36,882 bases of DNA from a virus, in IMG/VR virus record IMGVR_UViG_3300048927_000793, positions 1 through 36,882 of that record; one strand, given 5' to 3'. The notes beneath the pieces are model-generated. The model saw only the letters and a program-made list of their open reading frames with translations. It was not told the DNA's origin and searched no databases. The translations under genes and the position numbers were made by a program. Below, piece by piece: positions 1-34,882 of the stretch (the stretch's first letter is position 1; every line of letters begins with the position of its first letter).

Positions 1-264
1 TCACTTTCCGCCTTGCTGGTTAATGCGATTTTCGGCACGGGCCACCCACTTAGCCTTTACGGCATCCAAGTCGACAAGATTACCCGCCTCTGCATCCGCA
101 ATTCCTTCAGCCACGGCTCGGAAATGCCAAGACTCAGACTCCACATAGCGAGCCAAAGCGCGCTTGAGATGGTATTGGCGATCCCGATCGGTCGCTTCAG
201 CGAGCTGATCAAGCTGGTCGATCAACTCAGAATCCACACGAAAAGACAGGACAGGCGATGCCAT
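1..264 (-). CDS. Ribbon-helix-helix antitoxin-like protein (CopG/RelB-type)
   Basis: The 87-residue protein begins with a short beta strand (VLSFRVDSEL) followed by two helices, the layout of the ribbon-helix-helix DNA-binding fold. A C-terminal segment (about residues 50-78) rich in Ala, Glu and Asp and containing EGIADAEAGN resembles the toxin-binding tail of RelB/ParD antitoxins. The ATG is preceded by CGGAG at a good distance. Its stop codon is the first base triplet of the window, so a ParE/RelE-type toxin gene, normally directly downstream, would lie outside on the left. It sits at the prophage edge beyond the lysis genes, a usual place for cargo. It could instead be a lone RHH repressor. 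The fold is well supported; the antitoxin role is inferred. Confidence 0.72.
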   Translation of the reverse strand: MASPVLSFRVDSELIDQLDQLAEATDRDRQYHLKRALARYVESESWHFRAVAEGIADAEAGNLVDLDAVKAKWVARAENRINQQGGK

Positions 265-23114: not shown

Positions 23115-23588
23115 TCACGCCTGCGCCCTTCCCAGCTTGGCAACCATCGCCCGACTGTGGCTGTGTTTTTGAGTCTGACCGCCCGCACCACGCGCAGCGC
23201 TATTACGATCCGCCATGATCAACAGTACCTGCTGATGAAGACGTGTAACCCAATTGCGATACGTACGATCGGCCCCTTCAGTGATACCGAGCGCCCGCAT
23301 CTGCTCTCGCATGGACATCTGCTCCAGGTAGCGAAATTGAGCCAGGCTCGACAAGGCGTCTCCCTTGGGTCCGTTCCGGCGGAGTTGAGCAACTGCAGCG
23401 TCGACCTCACTGGTTACGTGATCCATCCCTGCCTCACCGGTGATGATCCGCGAACCCGGCGTTCCGCGAGGCGCACAGCCCTTCCACTCCATGATCGACC
23501 CCATCTGACTACCGATCCCAGCGCCAAGGCCGTACCGGCGGTGATGCTCACCCCAATGCACCAACAGCTCTTCGATTTCCTTGATCAT
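23115..23588 (-). CDS. Putative late-gene regulator (Q-like) or conserved unknown
   Basis: A 157-residue basic protein beginning MIKEIEELLVHWGEHHRRYG. About residues 108-138 hold a helix-turn-helix-like segment (EQMRALGITEGADRTYRNWV then LHQQVLLIMADR), similar in style to Q and ArpU/RinA-type late regulators. The C-terminus is Ser/His/Arg-rich. Position supports this: it is the last gene of the early right operon and lies directly before the late leader, as Q does in lambda. ATG 23588 follows iteron-like repeats rather than coding sequence. The family is not firmly recognised. Confidence 0.5.
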   Translation of the reverse strand: MIKEIEELLVHWGEHHRRYGLGAGIGSQMGSIMEWKGCAPRGTPGSRIITGEAGMDHVTSEVDAAVAQLRRNGPKGDALSSLAQFRYLEQMSMREQMRALGITEGADRTYRNWVTRLHQQVLLIMADRNSAARGAGGQTQKHSHSRAMVAKLGRAQA

Positions 23589-23916
23589 GCCCCAATCCCC
23601 CGCAGAACCAGACCCAACACAAAAAACGAGATACCCAACACAAACCCGACACACAAAAAAACCATACAAATCAAATGATTAATAAATGTTGTGTTGAGTG
23701 TGTTGGGTTTGTTGGGCTTTTCAGGGTTCGCATGGAAAAAAATCCTCGCTACTGAAAGCGGTGAAATATTCTGCGCACATGCGCGCCTGCGCGCGTAAAC
23801 CCAACACACCCAACACACACCGCCACAAGCCCCGGTTTTCGGGCCTGAATGTTGTGTTAGGTCGCCAAACACAGCCCAACACACCGTCAGCACACCCAAC
23901 ACACTTTTGGACGTAC
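23589..23916. repeat. CCCAACACA iteron cluster, candidate replication origin
   Basis: This 328-base gap between the primase-helicase gene and the Q-like gene holds seven exact 9-mers. Plus-strand CCCAACACA is at 23613, 23634, 23800, 23809, 23875 and 23895, and its complement TGTGTTGGG is at 23699. Close variants lie at 23645, 23690, 23708, 23853 and 23865. Copies at 23690-23716 and 23800-23817 abut exactly every nine bases. AT-rich segments (23651-23690, 23736-23752) lie between. P4-type primase-helicases bind iterons of this sort at their origin, so this is the best origin candidate. Confidence 0.62.
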
Positions 23917-26595
23917 TCATGCCGCGACCGCCTTGACGTGATCCCACGCCTCGACATTCCAGCCCGCCAGCTTCGCCTTGGCGCGCCACGCCTCGACGGT
24001 CTTGCCCAGATCGGCTGCCTTCAGCGATGGGGCGAGGGAAGCATCAGGGTCATCTGGAAAGAAGAACGCCCCGAACTTGCGGTCGTTACGTTCCGTCCAC
24101 GGGATGGATCGCGTCTTCTCGACCTCTGAACTCAGGAAGAGGGAGAACTTGGTCTGACTCATCGCGTGCTCTTTATTTCGGTGGCACCACTCGATAAACA
24201 GCGCATACAGGTCACTGGATAGGCACGCACCCCAGAGGCCGCTGCCCAGCTCGCCGTACTTCCACAGCTGCAAGAACGTCTGCCAACCCGCACGACTGAG
24301 CGCAACCAGGCGCTCGCGCGCCGATGTGCTCGGCGGTCGGGTGCGCTGGTCGAAATCGCCAAGGTCGACACGCAACAACCAGCCATACAGCGCCGCGACC
24401 CCACCGTTCTGTAGCTCAAGACCAATTGCCTTCTGGCGGGCAACAGGCAGGGTTTCATTTGGCCACATCACCAACATACGGCGGTCGCTGTCGCTGATGG
24501 GCCAAGGCAGGATTTCGTTACTCAAGAACACGGCATTCATGTGGTTGGACTCCTCCCAACCATTGATGAACTTCGATTCCATCCGCACGGTTTTACCGGT
24601 CACCAGGTGCTTGATCTTGCCCACCTGGTTGTAACGCTGGTCACGACTCACGACCTCCTCGAACACGGCCCACAGCTTGCGGCTTTGCCAGGCGTTGAAG
24701 TTGCTTTCCAACTGGGTCTGTCCCACTGTTGCGGCATACTGGCCGTAGAGCGCACCAAACGTGTCCGCAAACAGAAGGCTTTTGCCAGAGCCCTCCATGG
24801 TGGAGTGCATCAGCACCGCCGTATCCATCTTCGCGCCAAGGTGCTGCAGGGGGTACGCCAGCCAGCGAGTCAGCCACTGCTGGGCGCTGTCGTCGTGGTT
24901 GCACAGGAAAGAAATGAGCCACCGCAGATTTGCGCAGGCCTCTTCATCATCAACTGGCTCAAGCGGCAGCCCCTCGAACGTATTTATGTAGACGGTCGGA
25001 TCCTTGGTCATCGTTGGGTCGAACACGATGTGGTCGACATCCACCACGCGGCGATCAGCACTGTTGAGCCAGAGCGCGTAGGCATCGCCCAACGCCATTT
25101 TCACCGCGCCTTCGGGCACGCGGCGTTTCTTCTCGCGGTCCCACACGTCCTTCGTACCGTCGATGTAGACGTAGCGATCAACAGGCGCCATGCCCAGCGC
25201 GCCACCCTTCTTGCCGGCCATCTTGCGAACTTGCTCGAACTCGCGCACCTGGTCATCAGCGATCAGCTTCTTTTTGGGACTATCAATCCACTCCTTAGCA
25301 AGTGCCTTTCCGACCAGGGCCTCGAACGCTGACTTCTTCATCACCCTCGTTTTATCGATGTCCCACATCTGCGTGGTTCCTTCCACCAAGGCAAAACGGC
25401 GCAGCAGCTGGTCAACCGTCAACCCGTCCCCCGCCCCCCCGTCGTTGGCAGGAGCCGCCTCTTCGGACGCACCAAGATCGGCCCGTTCGGGTGATGGGGC
25501 CGGGGGAAGATCTGGCTGGGGTGGGCGAGCGGACTGCATGCCCAGCATGCGTGCAGCTTCTTTCACGGCGCGCGATTGATCGCCACCGTGCTCAAGCAGG
25601 CAGTAAACCTCGAACGCGTCATTCTGGTGGCCGTTAGCAAGCGGATCAGCGCCATGGTGCGAATACACCTTGCCGTCGGTGATCGTGATGCCCGGCAATC
25701 CGGTGCTGCTCTGGGCGTACAACCATTTTTGACCGCGCTTGATGTACCCGTGCGCTCTCAGCAGCTCTTCAACATCGTGACAACGATTGAACTCGTCGAT
25801 CACAGACGGCTGCTTACCGGGAGTGGATACAGGCTTGGTTTTTTGCTTCGACTTTGGCTGTTCAATCTTCGGCGCCCACGGGCAGGCGGCCTCGGCATCT
25901 CGCTTGAAGATGTCCCAACCATTCCAGATATTCAGCAAGTCAGCGGTCAGGACCGGCAAACCATCGGAGGAAGGCGGAGTACGCCAGGTGTACGGCTTAC
26001 TAGTGCCAGGATGGATCGACGGCGGGAGTACGTCCTGCACAAGGCCCGCGCGAAGTTCAAACACGGTGATGCGCGCGTATTGATGGGCTTCGACGCGGTA
26101 AAGCTTTTCCCGCGCCGTGTCGCCGGCATCCTTGGCGGTGTTCGCTTTCATGATCAGCGACTTGTGCTTCGAGCCATCCGGATCATTCGGATTCGGCCAG
26201 GCGAGAGAATGGCGCGTGAGGTCGAGGCCATCCGGAACTGCGAACAGAATACGGAAGCGCGCCGGGTTACCAACAACAGTCGGATAGGCTTCGGCCAGCG
26301 CGTCCAGATCCAAGCCGAGCAGGTCTGCGAATATCTGGCGGGTGTACTCGACGTCATCGACATCCAGCGAGCAGACACGGCTCGGGCCCAACACGACGCC
26401 CATGTTGTGCTTCGGGTGCAACGTCCAGAACTTCTCAGCCGCGTCAGGATCGGTGATATATCCACCGGGCTTATTCCAGCCAAATCCTTTCGGCGCCTTC
26501 TCACCCGGTTCGATGGAAACCAGAGCCAGATTGAAGGTTTCGATGTAACGCCGAGCCCATATTGCGATACTGCTTGGGTTCGAACGGTCGGTCAT
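23917..26595 (-). CDS. Primase-helicase (Prim-Pol plus SF3 helicase, P4 alpha/D5-like)
   Basis: An 892-residue protein. Residues 1-215 are a bifunctional primase/polymerase domain: 'SIEPGEKAPKGFGW', the metal-binding D78-x-D80 (CSLDVDD) and 'PSIHPGTSKPYTW'. A linker domain lies at about 265-355. From about 590 comes the superfamily 3 helicase, with Walker A EGSGKS (601-606) and Walker B LWAVFEE (641-647). It should unwind and prime phage DNA and probably recognise the origin. ATG 26595 overlaps the TraR-like stop as ATGA; the frame continues to a TTG at 26640 that is less likely. The candidate iterons follow its stop directly. Confidence 0.92.
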   Translation of the reverse strand: MTDRSNPSSIAIWARRYIETFNLALVSIEPGEKAPKGFGWNKPGGYITDPDAAEKFWTLHPKHNMGVVLGPSRVCSLDVDDVEYTRQIFADLLGLDLDALAEAYPTVVGNPARFRILFAVPDGLDLTRHSLAWPNPNDPDGSKHKSLIMKANTAKDAGDTAREKLYRVEAHQYARITVFELRAGLVQDVLPPSIHPGTSKPYTWRTPPSSDGLPVLTADLLNIWNGWDIFKRDAEAACPWAPKIEQPKSKQKTKPVSTPGKQPSVIDEFNRCHDVEELLRAHGYIKRGQKWLYAQSSTGLPGITITDGKVYSHHGADPLANGHQNDAFEVYCLLEHGGDQSRAVKEAARMLGMQSARPPQPDLPPAPSPERADLGASEEAAPANDGGAGDGLTVDQLLRRFALVEGTTQMWDIDKTRVMKKSAFEALVGKALAKEWIDSPKKKLIADDQVREFEQVRKMAGKKGGALGMAPVDRYVYIDGTKDVWDREKKRRVPEGAVKMALGDAYALWLNSADRRVVDVDHIVFDPTMTKDPTVYINTFEGLPLEPVDDEEACANLRWLISFLCNHDDSAQQWLTRWLAYPLQHLGAKMDTAVLMHSTMEGSGKSLLFADTFGALYGQYAATVGQTQLESNFNAWQSRKLWAVFEEVVSRDQRYNQVGKIKHLVTGKTVRMESKFINGWEESNHMNAVFLSNEILPWPISDSDRRMLVMWPNETLPVARQKAIGLELQNGGVAALYGWLLRVDLGDFDQRTRPPSTSARERLVALSRAGWQTFLQLWKYGELGSGLWGACLSSDLYALFIEWCHRNKEHAMSQTKFSLFLSSEVEKTRSIPWTERNDRKFGAFFFPDDPDASLAPSLKAADLGKTVEAWRAKAKLAGWNVEAWDHVKAVAA

Positions 26596-26795
26596 TGCCG
26601 GCGCTCCCGCACCGCTTGGCAACTGACGCAGGTCTGGCAACCTGCCACCTTCTGCCTGCGCAACAGCGGGATGGGGTCGTCGCAGACCTCACAGAACTCC
26701 GCGCTGGCACGCACAGAGGCTGTTGCCCGACGCTGCAATGCGATGTCCAGCAGGTACTGGGCTTGATCATTTGCGATATCTGCGACGTCAGCCAT
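26592..26795 (-). CDS. TraR/DksA-type zinc finger protein
   Basis: The 67-residue protein has an N-terminal helix (ADVADIANDQAQYLLDIALQRR) and a C4 zinc finger, C35-x2-C38 and C56-x2-C59 ('CEVCDDPIPLLRR' and 'CVSCQ'). This is the short TraR layout that binds the secondary channel of RNA polymerase and mimics DksA with ppGpp. ATG 26795 has GGAGG upstream and overlaps the CII-like gene by eight bases. Phage copies may shift host transcription during infection; that role is inferred. Confidence 0.9.
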   Translation of the reverse strand: MADVADIANDQAQYLLDIALQRRATASVRASAEFCEVCDDPIPLLRRQKVAGCQTCVSCQAVRERRQ

Positions 26796-31881: not shown

Positions 31882-32256
31882 ATGCAACCAATCCACTTCA
31901 TCATCTTCGCACTTGCCGCCGTGCTGGCTTTCAGCCTGTGCCGGATCGGCGCCAAAGCGATTGCCAAAGACCGCCGCTACCAGTTCGCCCAAGGCAGAGC
32001 TGCAGGCCGCATCGAAGGTCGCGCCGAGCGCGTGACTGAACACAACGCCCTGCAAATGGCTGACCTCCAGACGCTGCTGGAGATCTCCAACACTCTGCAC
32101 GTGGCCCACAAGACCTGGCGCGCGATCCCTCACACGGACAAGTACCAGGCGCAAGCCACGAAGCACCTCAACGACCTGAACAGGATCGCGAAGCGTATCC
32201 GTGACGAAGGCGAGGCCGGCACAACCGGGGCCGTGGAACAGGAGCAGGCAGCATGA
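31882..32256 (+). CDS. Single-pass membrane protein with coiled-coil tail, unknown
   Basis: The 124-residue protein has an N-terminal transmembrane helix (about residues 5-21, IHFIIFALAAVLAFSL). A highly charged helical region follows (AKDRRYQFAQGRAAGRIEGRAERVTEHNALQ...) and a Glu/Gly-rich end. AGGAG precedes the ATG. It is coupled to the HD phosphohydrolase by ATGA. No function is recognised. Confidence 0.6.
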   Translation: MQPIHFIIFALAAVLAFSLCRIGAKAIAKDRRYQFAQGRAAGRIEGRAERVTEHNALQMADLQTLLEISNTLHVAHKTWRAIPHTDKYQAQATKHLNDLNRIAKRIRDEGEAGTTGAVEQEQAA

Positions 32257-32795
32257 GCTGGATTCTCACATTCACCGGTCGCCGCTTCGATCTGCTCGAA
32301 CCTACCGCCGCGATGATTACGCCTGGCGATATCGCGCACGCGCTGGCCCGCATTTGCCGATTCAACGGCCACTGTCGCACGCACTACAGCGTCGCCCAGC
32401 ACAGCTGCATGGTCGCAGACTTGGTGCCTGCCGCCGACCAACTGGCCGCGCTTCTGCACGATGCAACCGAAGCGTACGTCGGCGACATGGTCCGCCCGCT
32501 GAAGGACGTGATGCCGGAGTACCGAGAAATCGAGCACCGCATCTGGCTCGCCGTCTGCGATCGCTTCCTGCTCGACCCAATCCTACCCATCAGCGTAAAG
32601 CGGGCCGACCTCGTTGCCCTCGCCACCGAGCGCCGCGACCTCATGCCCGCCCAGCAGGCCGAGTGGCACTGCTTGAGCGGCATTCACCCGCATGCCGAGC
32701 CGATCCGTCCATGGAACGCGGAGGAAGCCAGCATTCACTATTTCCGCCGCCTGATGGACCTGATGCAGACAGCGCATCGCGGGAGGGCGGCATGA
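32253..32795 (+). CDS. HD-domain phosphohydrolase (YfdR-like)
   Basis: The 180-residue protein has the HD signature: H50 (YSVAQHS), H69-D70 (ALLHDATEAYVGD) and a later Asp ('KRADLVALATER', residues about 116-127). This resembles YfdR and related nucleotidase-type HD enzymes that act on nucleotides. It sits next to the DUF2303 and dNMP kinase genes, which suggests a nucleotide-pool role. Start and stop overlap the neighbouring genes by ATGA. Confidence 0.87.
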   Translation: MSWILTFTGRRFDLLEPTAAMITPGDIAHALARICRFNGHCRTHYSVAQHSCMVADLVPAADQLAALLHDATEAYVGDMVRPLKDVMPEYREIEHRIWLAVCDRFLLDPILPISVKRADLVALATERRDLMPAQQAEWHCLSGIHPHAEPIRPWNAEEASIHYFRRLMDLMQTAHRGRAA

Positions 32796-34882
32796 CGTCT
32801 CTCAAGAAACCTCCGTTCGATTTCAAGACTCAGTATTCATTGGGCTTCAATCCCCAAGATGATGAGATTGTCGTCGATTTCTTCTGCGGTGGTGGCGGCG
32901 CCGGCACCGGCCTGGAGATGGGTCTGGGTCGCAAAGTGAACGTGGCGAAAAACCACAGCCCGAAGGCAATCAGCATGCACACCGTCAACCACCCTGGTGC
33001 GGCGCACTTCACCACCGACGTGTTCGAGGGCGACCCTGACACCGAATGCGGCGGCAAGGCCGTCGGCTGGTTTCACATGTCGCCAGACTGCACGCACCAC
33101 AGCCAGGCAGCCGGCGGCCAGCCGCGCAAGCGCGAGATTCGCAACCTGTCGTGGATCGGGTTGAAGTGGGGCGGCAAGAAGAAACCGCGCGTGATCAGCC
33201 TGGAGAACGTGAAGCAGATCCTGCAGTGGGGTCCGCTGATCGCCAAGCGCGACAAGGAGACCGGGCGCGTCATCAAGCTGGTGACCGTGCTGAACGCCAA
33301 GGGCAAGGAAGTCATCGAGAAGGTTGTCGCTGCACCTGGTGAGGTCGTTCCCGTCGGCCAGCAGTTCCTGGTGCCAGACCCGAAGCGCCGCGGTACCACT
33401 TGGAAGCGCTTCGTGCATCTGTTGGAAGGCATGGGCTACGCAACTGAATGGCGCGTCATCAAGGCTTGCGACTTTGGAGCGCCGACCAGCCGCGAGCGCC
33501 TGTTCATGATCGCCCGCTGCGACGGCCAGCCGATCGTGTGGCCAGAGCCGACCCACGCGAAGAAACCCGCCAAGGGCCAACAGAAATACCGCACCGCCGC
33601 CGAGTGCATCGACTTCAGCGACCTGGGCAAAAGCATCTTCGGGCGCAAGGACGAACTGGCCGACGCCACCAAGCGCCGCATCGCCAAGGGCATGAAGAAA
33701 TTCGTCATCGACAACCCGGTGCCGTTCATTGTGCCGATCGCAAACTGGTCAACTGAAACGGTGCAATCCATGGATGAGCCCCTGCGCACCGTGACCTCCT
33801 ACCCGAAAGGCGGGTCGTTCTCGGTGGTGAGTCCGGTCATCGCACCTGCCACGCACCAGGGAAGCGACCGGGTCAACAATCCACTTGAGCCACTGCCGAC
33901 GGTTACATGCGCCAATCGCGGCGAATTGACACTGGCAACGGCAAATCTGGTGCAGCTGGGCAACGGTGACAAACCTGGTTCCGCACCTCGGGTTGCTGAT
34001 ATGCACGATCCTCTCGGTACGATTATGGCGTCGGGTGGAAAGTACGGTTTAGCCGCTGCGCACCTGGTCAAGTTCCGATTCAACGATGAAGGCAAGGCGC
34101 TGGACGAACCGCTGCCTACCATCACCAGCGGCGGCAATTACCAGCGCCCCGCTGGCGCCGCGCACGCCATGGGCATCGCCACCGCGTTCATGGCTCAGAT
34201 GAATGGCGGGTTCAACACCACCGACGCCAAAAGCATCAACGATCCGATGACCACTGTGACGAACACCGGCAGTCAGCAGCAGCTGGTGACCGCGAGTCTG
34301 CTGCACCTGCGCGGCAACTGTGACGCCCGGGCGGCGGATGAACCGCTGCATACCGTCAGCGCTGGCGGCACGCATCACGGCCTGATGACTGCATTCATGG
34401 AACGCCAGTTCGGCGCCAGCGTCGGCCAGGATCTAAGCGACCCGGCGCCGACCATCACAGCGGGCGGCGGCGGTAAGAGCTCGCTGGTCAGCTTTGAATT
34501 GTCGCCGGAGCATGAAGAAGGCGCGCTGCGCGTCGCAGCATTCCTGATCAGCTACTACGGCACCGAAAACATGAGCGGCTGCGACCAGCCGGCGCCGACG
34601 ATCACGACCAAGGATCGTCTGGGCCTGGTCACCGTCATGGTCAAAGGCACTCCCTACGTGATCGTCGATATCCGGCTACGCATGCTGCAACCGGCCGAGC
34701 TGTACCGGGCGCAGGGCTTCCCGCCGGACTACATCATCACGCACGGCGCCGACGGCAAGCCGTTCACGAAGACCGAGCAGGTCCACATGTGCGGCAACAG
34801 CGTCAGCCCACCGCCGATGGCCGCCCTCGCCCGGGCCAATGATCCGTGGCGTCAAGCTGAACGAATGCTGGAGGCGGCATGA
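32792..34882 (+). CDS. C5 cytosine DNA methyltransferase with repeat-expanded middle
   Basis: A 696-residue protein. Motif I is VDFFCGGGGAGTG (28-40); motif IV is SPDC with catalytic Cys100; ENV (138-140) is motif VI; TSRERLFMIA (232-241) is motif VIII; motifs IX-X are near 'LQPAELYRAQGFPPDYI' and 'MCGNSVSPPP'. Between VIII and IX lie about 380 residues holding eight copies of a 'D-E-P-L-x-T-V-T' unit (starting near residues 327, 365, 405, 438, 483, 516, 549, 598). This is the region where target recognition normally lies. GGGAGG precedes ATG 32792. It may protect phage DNA against restriction. Confidence 0.93.
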   Translation: MTSLKKPPFDFKTQYSLGFNPQDDEIVVDFFCGGGGAGTGLEMGLGRKVNVAKNHSPKAISMHTVNHPGAAHFTTDVFEGDPDTECGGKAVGWFHMSPDCTHHSQAAGGQPRKREIRNLSWIGLKWGGKKKPRVISLENVKQILQWGPLIAKRDKETGRVIKLVTVLNAKGKEVIEKVVAAPGEVVPVGQQFLVPDPKRRGTTWKRFVHLLEGMGYATEWRVIKACDFGAPTSRERLFMIARCDGQPIVWPEPTHAKKPAKGQQKYRTAAECIDFSDLGKSIFGRKDELADATKRRIAKGMKKFVIDNPVPFIVPIANWSTETVQSMDEPLRTVTSYPKGGSFSVVSPVIAPATHQGSDRVNNPLEPLPTVTCANRGELTLATANLVQLGNGDKPGSAPRVADMHDPLGTIMASGGKYGLAAAHLVKFRFNDEGKALDEPLPTITSGGNYQRPAGAAHAMGIATAFMAQMNGGFNTTDAKSINDPMTTVTNTGSQQQLVTASLLHLRGNCDARAADEPLHTVSAGGTHHGLMTAFMERQFGASVGQDLSDPAPTITAGGGGKSSLVSFELSPEHEEGALRVAAFLISYYGTENMSGCDQPAPTITTKDRLGLVTVMVKGTPYVIVDIRLRMLQPAELYRAQGFPPDYIITHGADGKPFTKTEQVHMCGNSVSPPPMAALARANDPWRQAERMLEAA

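Follow-up and report, generated by a model that had tools for sequence, protein, structure and literature searches.

A probable iteron-type replication origin behind the primase-helicase gene in a large group of Pseudomonas phages and prophages

The leftward operon of virus record IMGVR_UViG_3300048927_000793 contains a non-coding gap with an array of short repeats, which raises the question of what the array does and which protein reads it. The window, i.e., the whole stretch of DNA analysed (36,882 bases), carries its own head, packaging and integrase genes, including those for the large and small terminase subunits, portal, head maturation protease, major head protein, and integrase. At its right-hand side, a large ORF with an uncertain start (32201–34882, plus strand) likely encodes a C5 cytosine DNA methyltransferase, and 32871–34849 matches a stretch with that annotation in Pseudomonas phage vB_PaeP-D14I. 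A small ORF at the left end (1–264, minus strand) weakly resembles CopG-like repressors (phrog_7325, E 0.0008), and also two families without an assigned function.

The gap (23589–23916) is 328 bases long and is bounded by the stop of a primase-helicase gene (23917) and the start of the next operon gene (23588). It was the largest gap in the operon, the second being 211 bases (operon genes as listed in this analysis), and a sequence-only reading of this DNA had already called it the only large one. The next gene, phrog_4300 (23115–23588, minus strand), showed weak similarity to the PA0613 family in profile matches, and the HNH, small terminase and large terminase genes of the same operon are located ~1.1 to 4.3 kb from the array. 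Judging from the repeat array, its position and the comparison with relatives, the gap is very probably the replication origin of the phage, and the neighbouring primase would bind it through its C-terminal helicase/winged-helix half.

Seven exact and five one-mismatch copies of the 9-mer CCCAACACA/TGTGTTGGG were counted in the gap, in both orientations, in agreement with the seven exact and at least five near copies of the sequence-only reading. Exact CCCAACACA sites begin at 23613, 23634, 23800, 23809, 23875, and 23895 on the plus strand and at 23699 on the minus strand; one-mismatch sites begin at 23645 and 23865 (plus) and at 23690, 23708, and 23853 (minus). The 12 sites are spread over 291 bases. 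Counted from the primase stop in the orientation of the primase, they start at 14, 34, and 44 (forward), 56 (reverse), 100 and 109 (forward), 201, 210, and 219 (reverse), and 264, 275, and 296 (forward), those at 44, 56, 201, 219, and 264 having one mismatch. They form four blocks, A (14–64), B (100–117), C (201–227), and D (264–304), of which A, B, and D point forward and C points in reverse.

Block A (23853–23903, plus strand) comprises exact iterons at 23895–23903 and 23875–23883 and a one-mismatch iteron at 23865–23873, all on the plus strand, and another one-mismatch iteron at 23853–23861 on the minus strand; these iterons have similar positions in relatives. Block B (23800–23817, plus strand) consists of two exact iterons (23800–23808 and 23809–23817), and block C (23690–23716, minus strand) of three iterons in the opposite orientation, exact at 23699–23707 and with one mismatch at 23690–23698 and 23708–23716. 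The iterons within B and within C abut every nine bases, as had been claimed for some of the repeats. Block D (23613–23653, plus strand) contains a one-mismatch iteron at 23645–23653 and exact ones at 23634–23642 and 23613–23621. Two further features sit between blocks B and C. The first, beside block B, is a GC-rich, mostly alternating purine-pyrimidine stretch (23773–23796) that was kept in relatives, with a mean AT content of 0.21 in the corresponding bin of an alignment of 100 thinned origins. The second is a non-iteron box, ATGCGA(A/G) (23727–23733, minus strand), six letters of which were 0.8–0.9 conserved in an alignment of 100 thinned origins and the last ~0.7. The most AT-rich part of the gap lies between blocks C and D (23655–23689), where a 40-base window reaches 75% AT and the mean in relatives was 0.66–0.74; its AT content and the alignment make it the proposed melting site.

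Exact copies of the 9-mer were confined to the gap, and the rest of the window held six scattered CCCAACACA matches, each with one mismatch. The whole window gave 18 matches with at most one mismatch, compared with a shuffle mean of 10.1, and 1 of 100 shuffles reached 18. Since this count is modest relative to the shuffles, the clustering and the exactness are the unusual features. Scored de novo for 9-mer repeats, the gap reached 12.1, and the maximum in 2000 dinucleotide-preserving shuffles was 5.2. An Rfam search for an RNA element returned a single match at chance level (E 0.8), and the RNA-element reading was dropped for that reason.

The primase-helicase gene (23917–26640, minus strand), delimited by domain matches and structure models, encodes 907 residues from a TTG; an ATG at residue 16 is an alternative start and may be the true one. 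The protein has a Prim-Pol domain (PF09250) at residues 29–223, a DUF5906 domain (SF3/D5-type helicase) at 612–721, and a C-terminal winged helix at ~785–861. The AlphaFold2 model of residues 770–907 (coding part 23917–24333, minus strand) had a pLDDT of 86, and its predicted winged helix has the third helix at ~829–837 and the wing strands at 846–861; this model and the variation among word classes make it the proposed iteron reader. In the model of residues 560–907 (pLDDT 84, pTM 0.70), the winged helix lies behind the SF3-type helicase. That model was compared with solved structures, and the fold search was also run with Foldseek. It matched NrS-1 polymerase (6k9c) with Z 23.0 over 291 residues, AsfvPrimPol with Z 16.0, the SaPI5 PriRep primase-helicase (7ola_A) with Z 15.5 (rmsd 4.3, 284 residues), and poxvirus D5/E5 with Z ~12 to 14. 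As judged from the model, these are the solved structures closest to the C-terminal half, and NrS-1 was also the sole clear sequence match to the primase-helicase in the PDB set. The winged helix alone gave weak, generic fold matches (Orc1/Cdc6 with E 0.13, RFX; best Z 5.5), with P4 alpha absent from the matches listed, which carries no weight, and a plasmid search with the primase yielded just five weak matches.

Relatives were collected from partly overlapping sets: at least 78 viral loci, at least 120 stretches found by a tandem 18-mer alone, at least 80 viral and at least 80 genome-contig loci from profile searches, scans giving 79, 3, and at least 80 loci, and ten named phage records. The collection held at least 525 loci including the window, of which 515 had a primase stop. 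The 10 loci without a stop and 10 with <330 bases downstream were left out, and the remaining 505 were collapsed to 328 distinct loci; near copies remain among these, and correlations were computed on thinned sets. The titled genome-contig loci listed belonged to Pseudomonas, Stutzerimonas, Atopomonas, and one MAG named to class only.

A strong array, defined as a repeat score of ≥5 in the first 345 bases behind the primase stop, was found in 324 of the 328 distinct loci listed, window included, and in none of 984 shuffles or 319 neighbouring 345-base stretches. Among distant loci (<55% identity), the proportion was 44 of 47, against 0 of 940 shuffles. No clear array was seen in L207 (phage YuA), L489, L474 (weak, 4.4), and L064 (truncated gene). 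In L064, the primase gene is cut short ahead of the winged-helix part and no array follows it; the sequence that comes next resembles, by eye, an early gene of the prophage locus L554. Arrays were also read in the cultured phages Turba, Presto, pAN, and PG1, and no origin feature is annotated in the listed stretches of these four records; Meadow, Lodos, and LPPA56 also count as cultured members of the group, on the strength of 73% DNA identity over the gap. In phage Turba (L202, 3001–5729) and Halomonas phage H4907 (L205, 1736–4227), two genes that overlap or abut encode the primase and helicase halves separately, and the iteron array is still behind the helicase gene.

The 324 origins had 43 best words, or ~31 after a rough collapsing of words that share a 7-mer, on nearly one scaffold, and the word group of the window accounted for 259 of them. 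Among 258 clade origins, blocks B and C faced opposite ways in 255 (three could not be judged); among 44 distant origins, they did so in 41, had the same orientation in two, and could not be judged in one. Block D pointed against C in all 257 judgeable clade origins, whereas D and C shared one direction in 38 of 39 distant origins, which indicated an inversion of block D between the two groups.

The tandem 18-mer scan of viral contigs, which gave at least 120 stretches, made no reference to the primase. Among the 120 stretches listed, a primase end was present within 450 bases in 114, and 107 also matched the next gene. Five of the remaining six (L093, L116, L123, L128, and L163) had the primase in an adjoining stretch according to contig coordinates, and in the sixth (L131) the contig begins at the array. 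Ten host genomes chosen for carrying the prophage were searched for two copies within 15 bases. This gave 23 matches in nine genomes, every one in the prophage locus, and no clustered 9-mer outside the prophage locus was detected in the ten genomes. In the tenth genome, the origin (L365) was classed with TGTGTAAGG and had three TGTGTTGGG copies, spaced apart. Paired repeats were rare across the host genus, occurring in 25 of 199 genomes, and 23 of the 25 best loci were beside the primase; a reversed control pattern matched once in the 10-genome search and once in the 199-genome search. The other two best loci were L554, a deleted prophage, and L549, a lone tandem pair with no recognised phage gene in its 3 kb. 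L554 (1476–1701; G095:C7, ~135,000) has lost the primase and early genes and has kept blocks C and D between phrog_4300-like and nucleotide-kinase-like genes (gene names by eye). A second repeat cluster was present in G085.

When the helicase distance was held, the iteron distance correlated with the distance of the winged helix (residues 791–870; partial r 0.51, 0 of 999 permutations, 93 thinned loci), in a test where label permutation leaves shared ancestry in, its removal is partial, and most origins carry one word. For the product of the next gene, the partial r was 0.001 (451 of 999 permutations, 93 thinned loci), so phrog_4300 was unsupported as a rival reader. The holin distance gave −0.02 (256 of 499 permutations, 37 loci). 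The HNH distance gave −0.06 in a set of 27 loci, 25 of one word, in which the winged-helix signal was itself weak (0.19, 74 of 499), and the terminase set comprised 16 thinned loci, all of one word. In sliding windows, residues 538–597 scored 0.39–0.44 and residues 798–877 scored 0.27–0.33; in 76 full-length proteins, the signal was negative in the N-terminal half and positive in all segments between residues 401 and 907. Because 538–597 outscored the winged helix and all of 401–907 was positive, the C-terminal half is singled out rather than one domain. Among the positions that differed between word classes were 829 and 834, in the predicted third helix, and 844 and 858, in the region of the wing, but many others differed too.

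The N-terminal half of the 328 loci was a Prim-Pol in 209, a PriCT-2/TOPRIM primase in 75, and neither in 44, of which 40 have <1.2 kb of upstream sequence. The TOPRIM part was covered in 72 of the 75 PriCT-2/TOPRIM loci, and Pfam found TOPRIM in L069, L060, L203, and L205. Within the clade, the word of the window accompanied 193 Prim-Pol proteins, 24 TOPRIM proteins, and 16 proteins whose N-terminus was beyond the available sequence, and the 24 represented most of the 33 TOPRIM-type clade origins. The same word with either primase indicated that the word follows the helicase and winged helix, whatever primase is attached, and this swap without a change of word made the Prim-Pol an unlikely reader. 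The C-terminal helicase/winged-helix half is thus the likely reader of the word, as far as these comparisons of sequences go. The sequence-only reading had placed an iteron origin beside a replication gene, and the array and the C-terminal half found together in nearly all listed loci, the primase in most repeat-found stretches, the co-divergence of the word with that half, and the restriction of paired repeats to the prophage locus in ten host genomes together give it strong support.

The words also change in concert. In L069, TGTCTAGGG occupied all 11 examined sites, at which the window carries TGTGTTGGG or one of its near copies (strict alignment columns). The site reading that supplied the word classes for the correlations, the parsimony, and the N-terminus and control-gene counts nudged sites towards TGTG...GG, and 11 chosen origins were reread strictly by alignment columns, apart from that reading. 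In 51 of the 55 pairs of these origins, the identity between sites within an origin was higher than that between the same sites of different origins. The four exceptional pairs were of like class (L146/L367 and L047/L366) or close (the window/L097 and L057/L033). This comparison shows that the word changes at the sites of an origin together. On a tree built from 80 helicase sequences with the winged helix left off, 14 word-class changes were counted by parsimony (shuffled mean 16.8), nine of them between the TTG/TCG classes and the rest, and starred branches force five changes for the TTG class; the tree was a quick one in which 31 of 77 inner branches were weak and two rows had long branches. 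Four origins (L047, L049, L366, and L365; first 330 bases after the stop) contained two words, TGTGTAAGG at inner and TGTGTTGGG at outer sites; in origins of the TGTGTAAGG class, TGTGTTGGG is retained at a constant set of outer sites, A1, D1, and D3 (e.g., L047 and L366). The two-word origins may be an intermediate state or reflect two binding modes.

Other explanations of the array were weighed against an origin. Under the first, a transcription regulator, e.g., the product of the next gene, binds the repeats as operators and controls the late genes. The array does separate the primase from the late genes, and it immediately precedes phrog_4300. In phage H4907, the corresponding position is taken by a gene with the annotation antitermination protein, and the products of this gene and of phrog_4300 both match the PA0613 family, below its cut-off. 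However, the word varied with the primase and not with the next gene, a simple consensus scan found no promoter-like or terminator-like site in 23400–24100, and a dozen sites on both strands over nearly 300 bases are much for an operator. We consider an operator array very unlikely.

The second explanation is that the repeats are single-strand templates where the Prim-Pol starts primers, not duplex binding sites. According to PMC8718748, NrS-1 polymerase starts primers at GTG or TTTGGTTA. GTG, the second NrS-1 site, is present in five of the six word classes that occur with a Prim-Pol N-terminus, and the sixth, TGGTTAGGG of phage KT1 (L209; read in the 345 bases after the primase stop), contains TGGTTA, part of TTTGGTTA. 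As the Prim-Pol word classes are mostly of one lineage, their GTG content is just a weak hint. Against priming, the same word occurred with the unrelated TOPRIM primase, the word tracked the C-terminal half, and GTG was present on either strand in 13 of 31 words (read from the word list). Priming in place of duplex binding therefore seems highly improbable, but it could be a second role of the same iteron sites.

Terminase-binding repeats of a packaging site (cos/pac) would suit the nearby HNH and terminase genes of the same operon, but the array stays behind the primase stop in 324 of 328 listed loci, its word tracks the primase, and HNH distance did not track the word (in the weak set of 27 loci), so that this explanation is barely credible. 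Nor is there practically any likelihood of low-complexity, chance or artefact repeats without function, a reading suggested by the two letters per strand of the word and by an unknown T+G-rich adapter in aphid sequencing reads that consists of TGTGTTGGG in tandem (PMC7245037; the shared 9-mer is probably a coincidence), and refuted as far as sequence allows by the shuffles, the genome background, and a spaced two-orientation scaffold that recurs in numerous separate assemblies, where other words occupy the corresponding positions.

The replication origin proposed here resembles several known systems. Origins 3′ of D5-type helicases are already known from SaPI/PICI elements and phage Sfi21. In the SaPI/PICI pri-rep-ori modules (SaPIbov1, SaPI5, and EcCICFT073), the initiator has a C-terminal DNA-binding domain, and its gene is followed directly on the 3′ side by the origin, in which an AT-rich region lies between two iteron sets (PMC6092414 and PMC7581432); SaPI Rep is reported to recognise iterons just downstream of its gene via that domain (PMC7581432). 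The window likewise has multiple short repeats directly 3′ of the initiator gene, a D5/SF3-type helicase (DUF5906) with a predicted C-terminal DNA-binding domain, and blocks C and D on either side of the AT-rich 23655–23689, with A and B as extra blocks. The helicase and C-terminal domain of SaPI5 (7ola) also fold like the model of the window protein. The differences are four blocks instead of two sets, a Prim-Pol or TOPRIM N-terminus, and phages with their own head and packaging genes, not satellites relying on the virion proteins of a helper. In Streptococcus phage Sfi21, a 302-bp non-coding origin is annotated directly downstream of the DUF5906/Pox_D5 helicase gene (NC_000872), so this kind of origin is already known; the PER role of that region is described in PMC6356513. 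Sfi21 differs in its Gram-positive host, in its separate polymerase/primase and D5-type genes, and in its repeat word, with three exact and two near copies of the best 9-mer (score 5.1).

The NrS-1 primase-polymerase shares the fusion of Prim-Pol and SF3/D5 helicase (NrS-1, ORF904 type) with the window protein and has the closest solved fold. It differs in its described recognition sites, GTG and an 8-nt motif that occurs twice in the genome, and the parts of PMC7102993 and PMC8718748 that were consulted describe no iteron array. ORF904 of pRN1 combines a Prim-Pol, an SF3 helicase and a C-terminal winged helix with an origin downstream of its gene (PMC4234260). The pRN1 origin is a large stem-loop without iterons. 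P4 alpha has a primase, a helicase and a DNA-binding domain that binds origin repeats (ori/crr), and its primase is of the TOPRIM type (PMC4234260), in contrast to the archaeo-eukaryotic Prim-Pol (PF09250) of the window. The sequence-only reading had called the protein a P4-alpha-like Prim-Pol/helicase; the Prim-Pol part stands, whereas the P4 likeness does not, with no TOPRIM N-terminus and a match to TIGR01613 (P4-family primase_Cterm) of 22 bits against a cut-off of 108.7. In lambda O-type origins, the iterons are inside the initiator coding sequence. An origin outside the replication gene, unlike that of lambda, had also been proposed, and the exact iterons of the window, found solely in the intergenic gap, are consistent with it. 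No description of the four-block form in a large phage group, of concerted word switching or of primase exchange was found in the open-access literature, and no paper found there describes these arrays; the 18-mer was met only in PMC7245037.

The array, its scaffold, its link to the C-terminal half of the primase and the concerted change of its word are evident from the comparison; we infer that the winged helix binds the iterons and that melting, loading of hexamers, synthesis of primers and replication follow. Once the phage is induced, the primase-helicase encoded by the adjoining gene would bind the 9-base iterons via its C-terminal winged helix. Its copies would gather on the oppositely pointing blocks C and D and melt the AT-rich stretch between them, and there they would assemble as ring helicases that unwind outward, with the N-terminal Prim-Pol laying primers during unwinding. 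Blocks A and B might offer the protein additional sites, used in loading or in copy control. What follows binding in this scheme is modelled on SaPI Rep and D5-type helicases (PMC7581432 and PMC6092414).

More tentatively, the locus may be a plug-in replicator: a single scaffold of about twelve sites on which all copies of the 9-base word change jointly with the protein part that reads them, and whose primase is swapped between two unrelated folds without touching the origin. We regard this as possible, falling somewhat short of an even case. Under it, the two-word origins (TGTGTAAGG inside, TGTGTTGGG outside) would be working intermediates or dual-specificity origins, the driver would perhaps be escape from competing phages, satellites or decoy origins, and the iterons of the Prim-Pol members may double as priming sites.

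The analysis assigns a probable origin to this large set of phages and prophages of Pseudomonas, for which none was annotated in the records examined. Matched pairs of reader and word on one scaffold make a specificity change of an initiator and a dozen sites directly testable. If the plug-in replicator proves true, related phages would fall into orthogonal groups of replication specificity.
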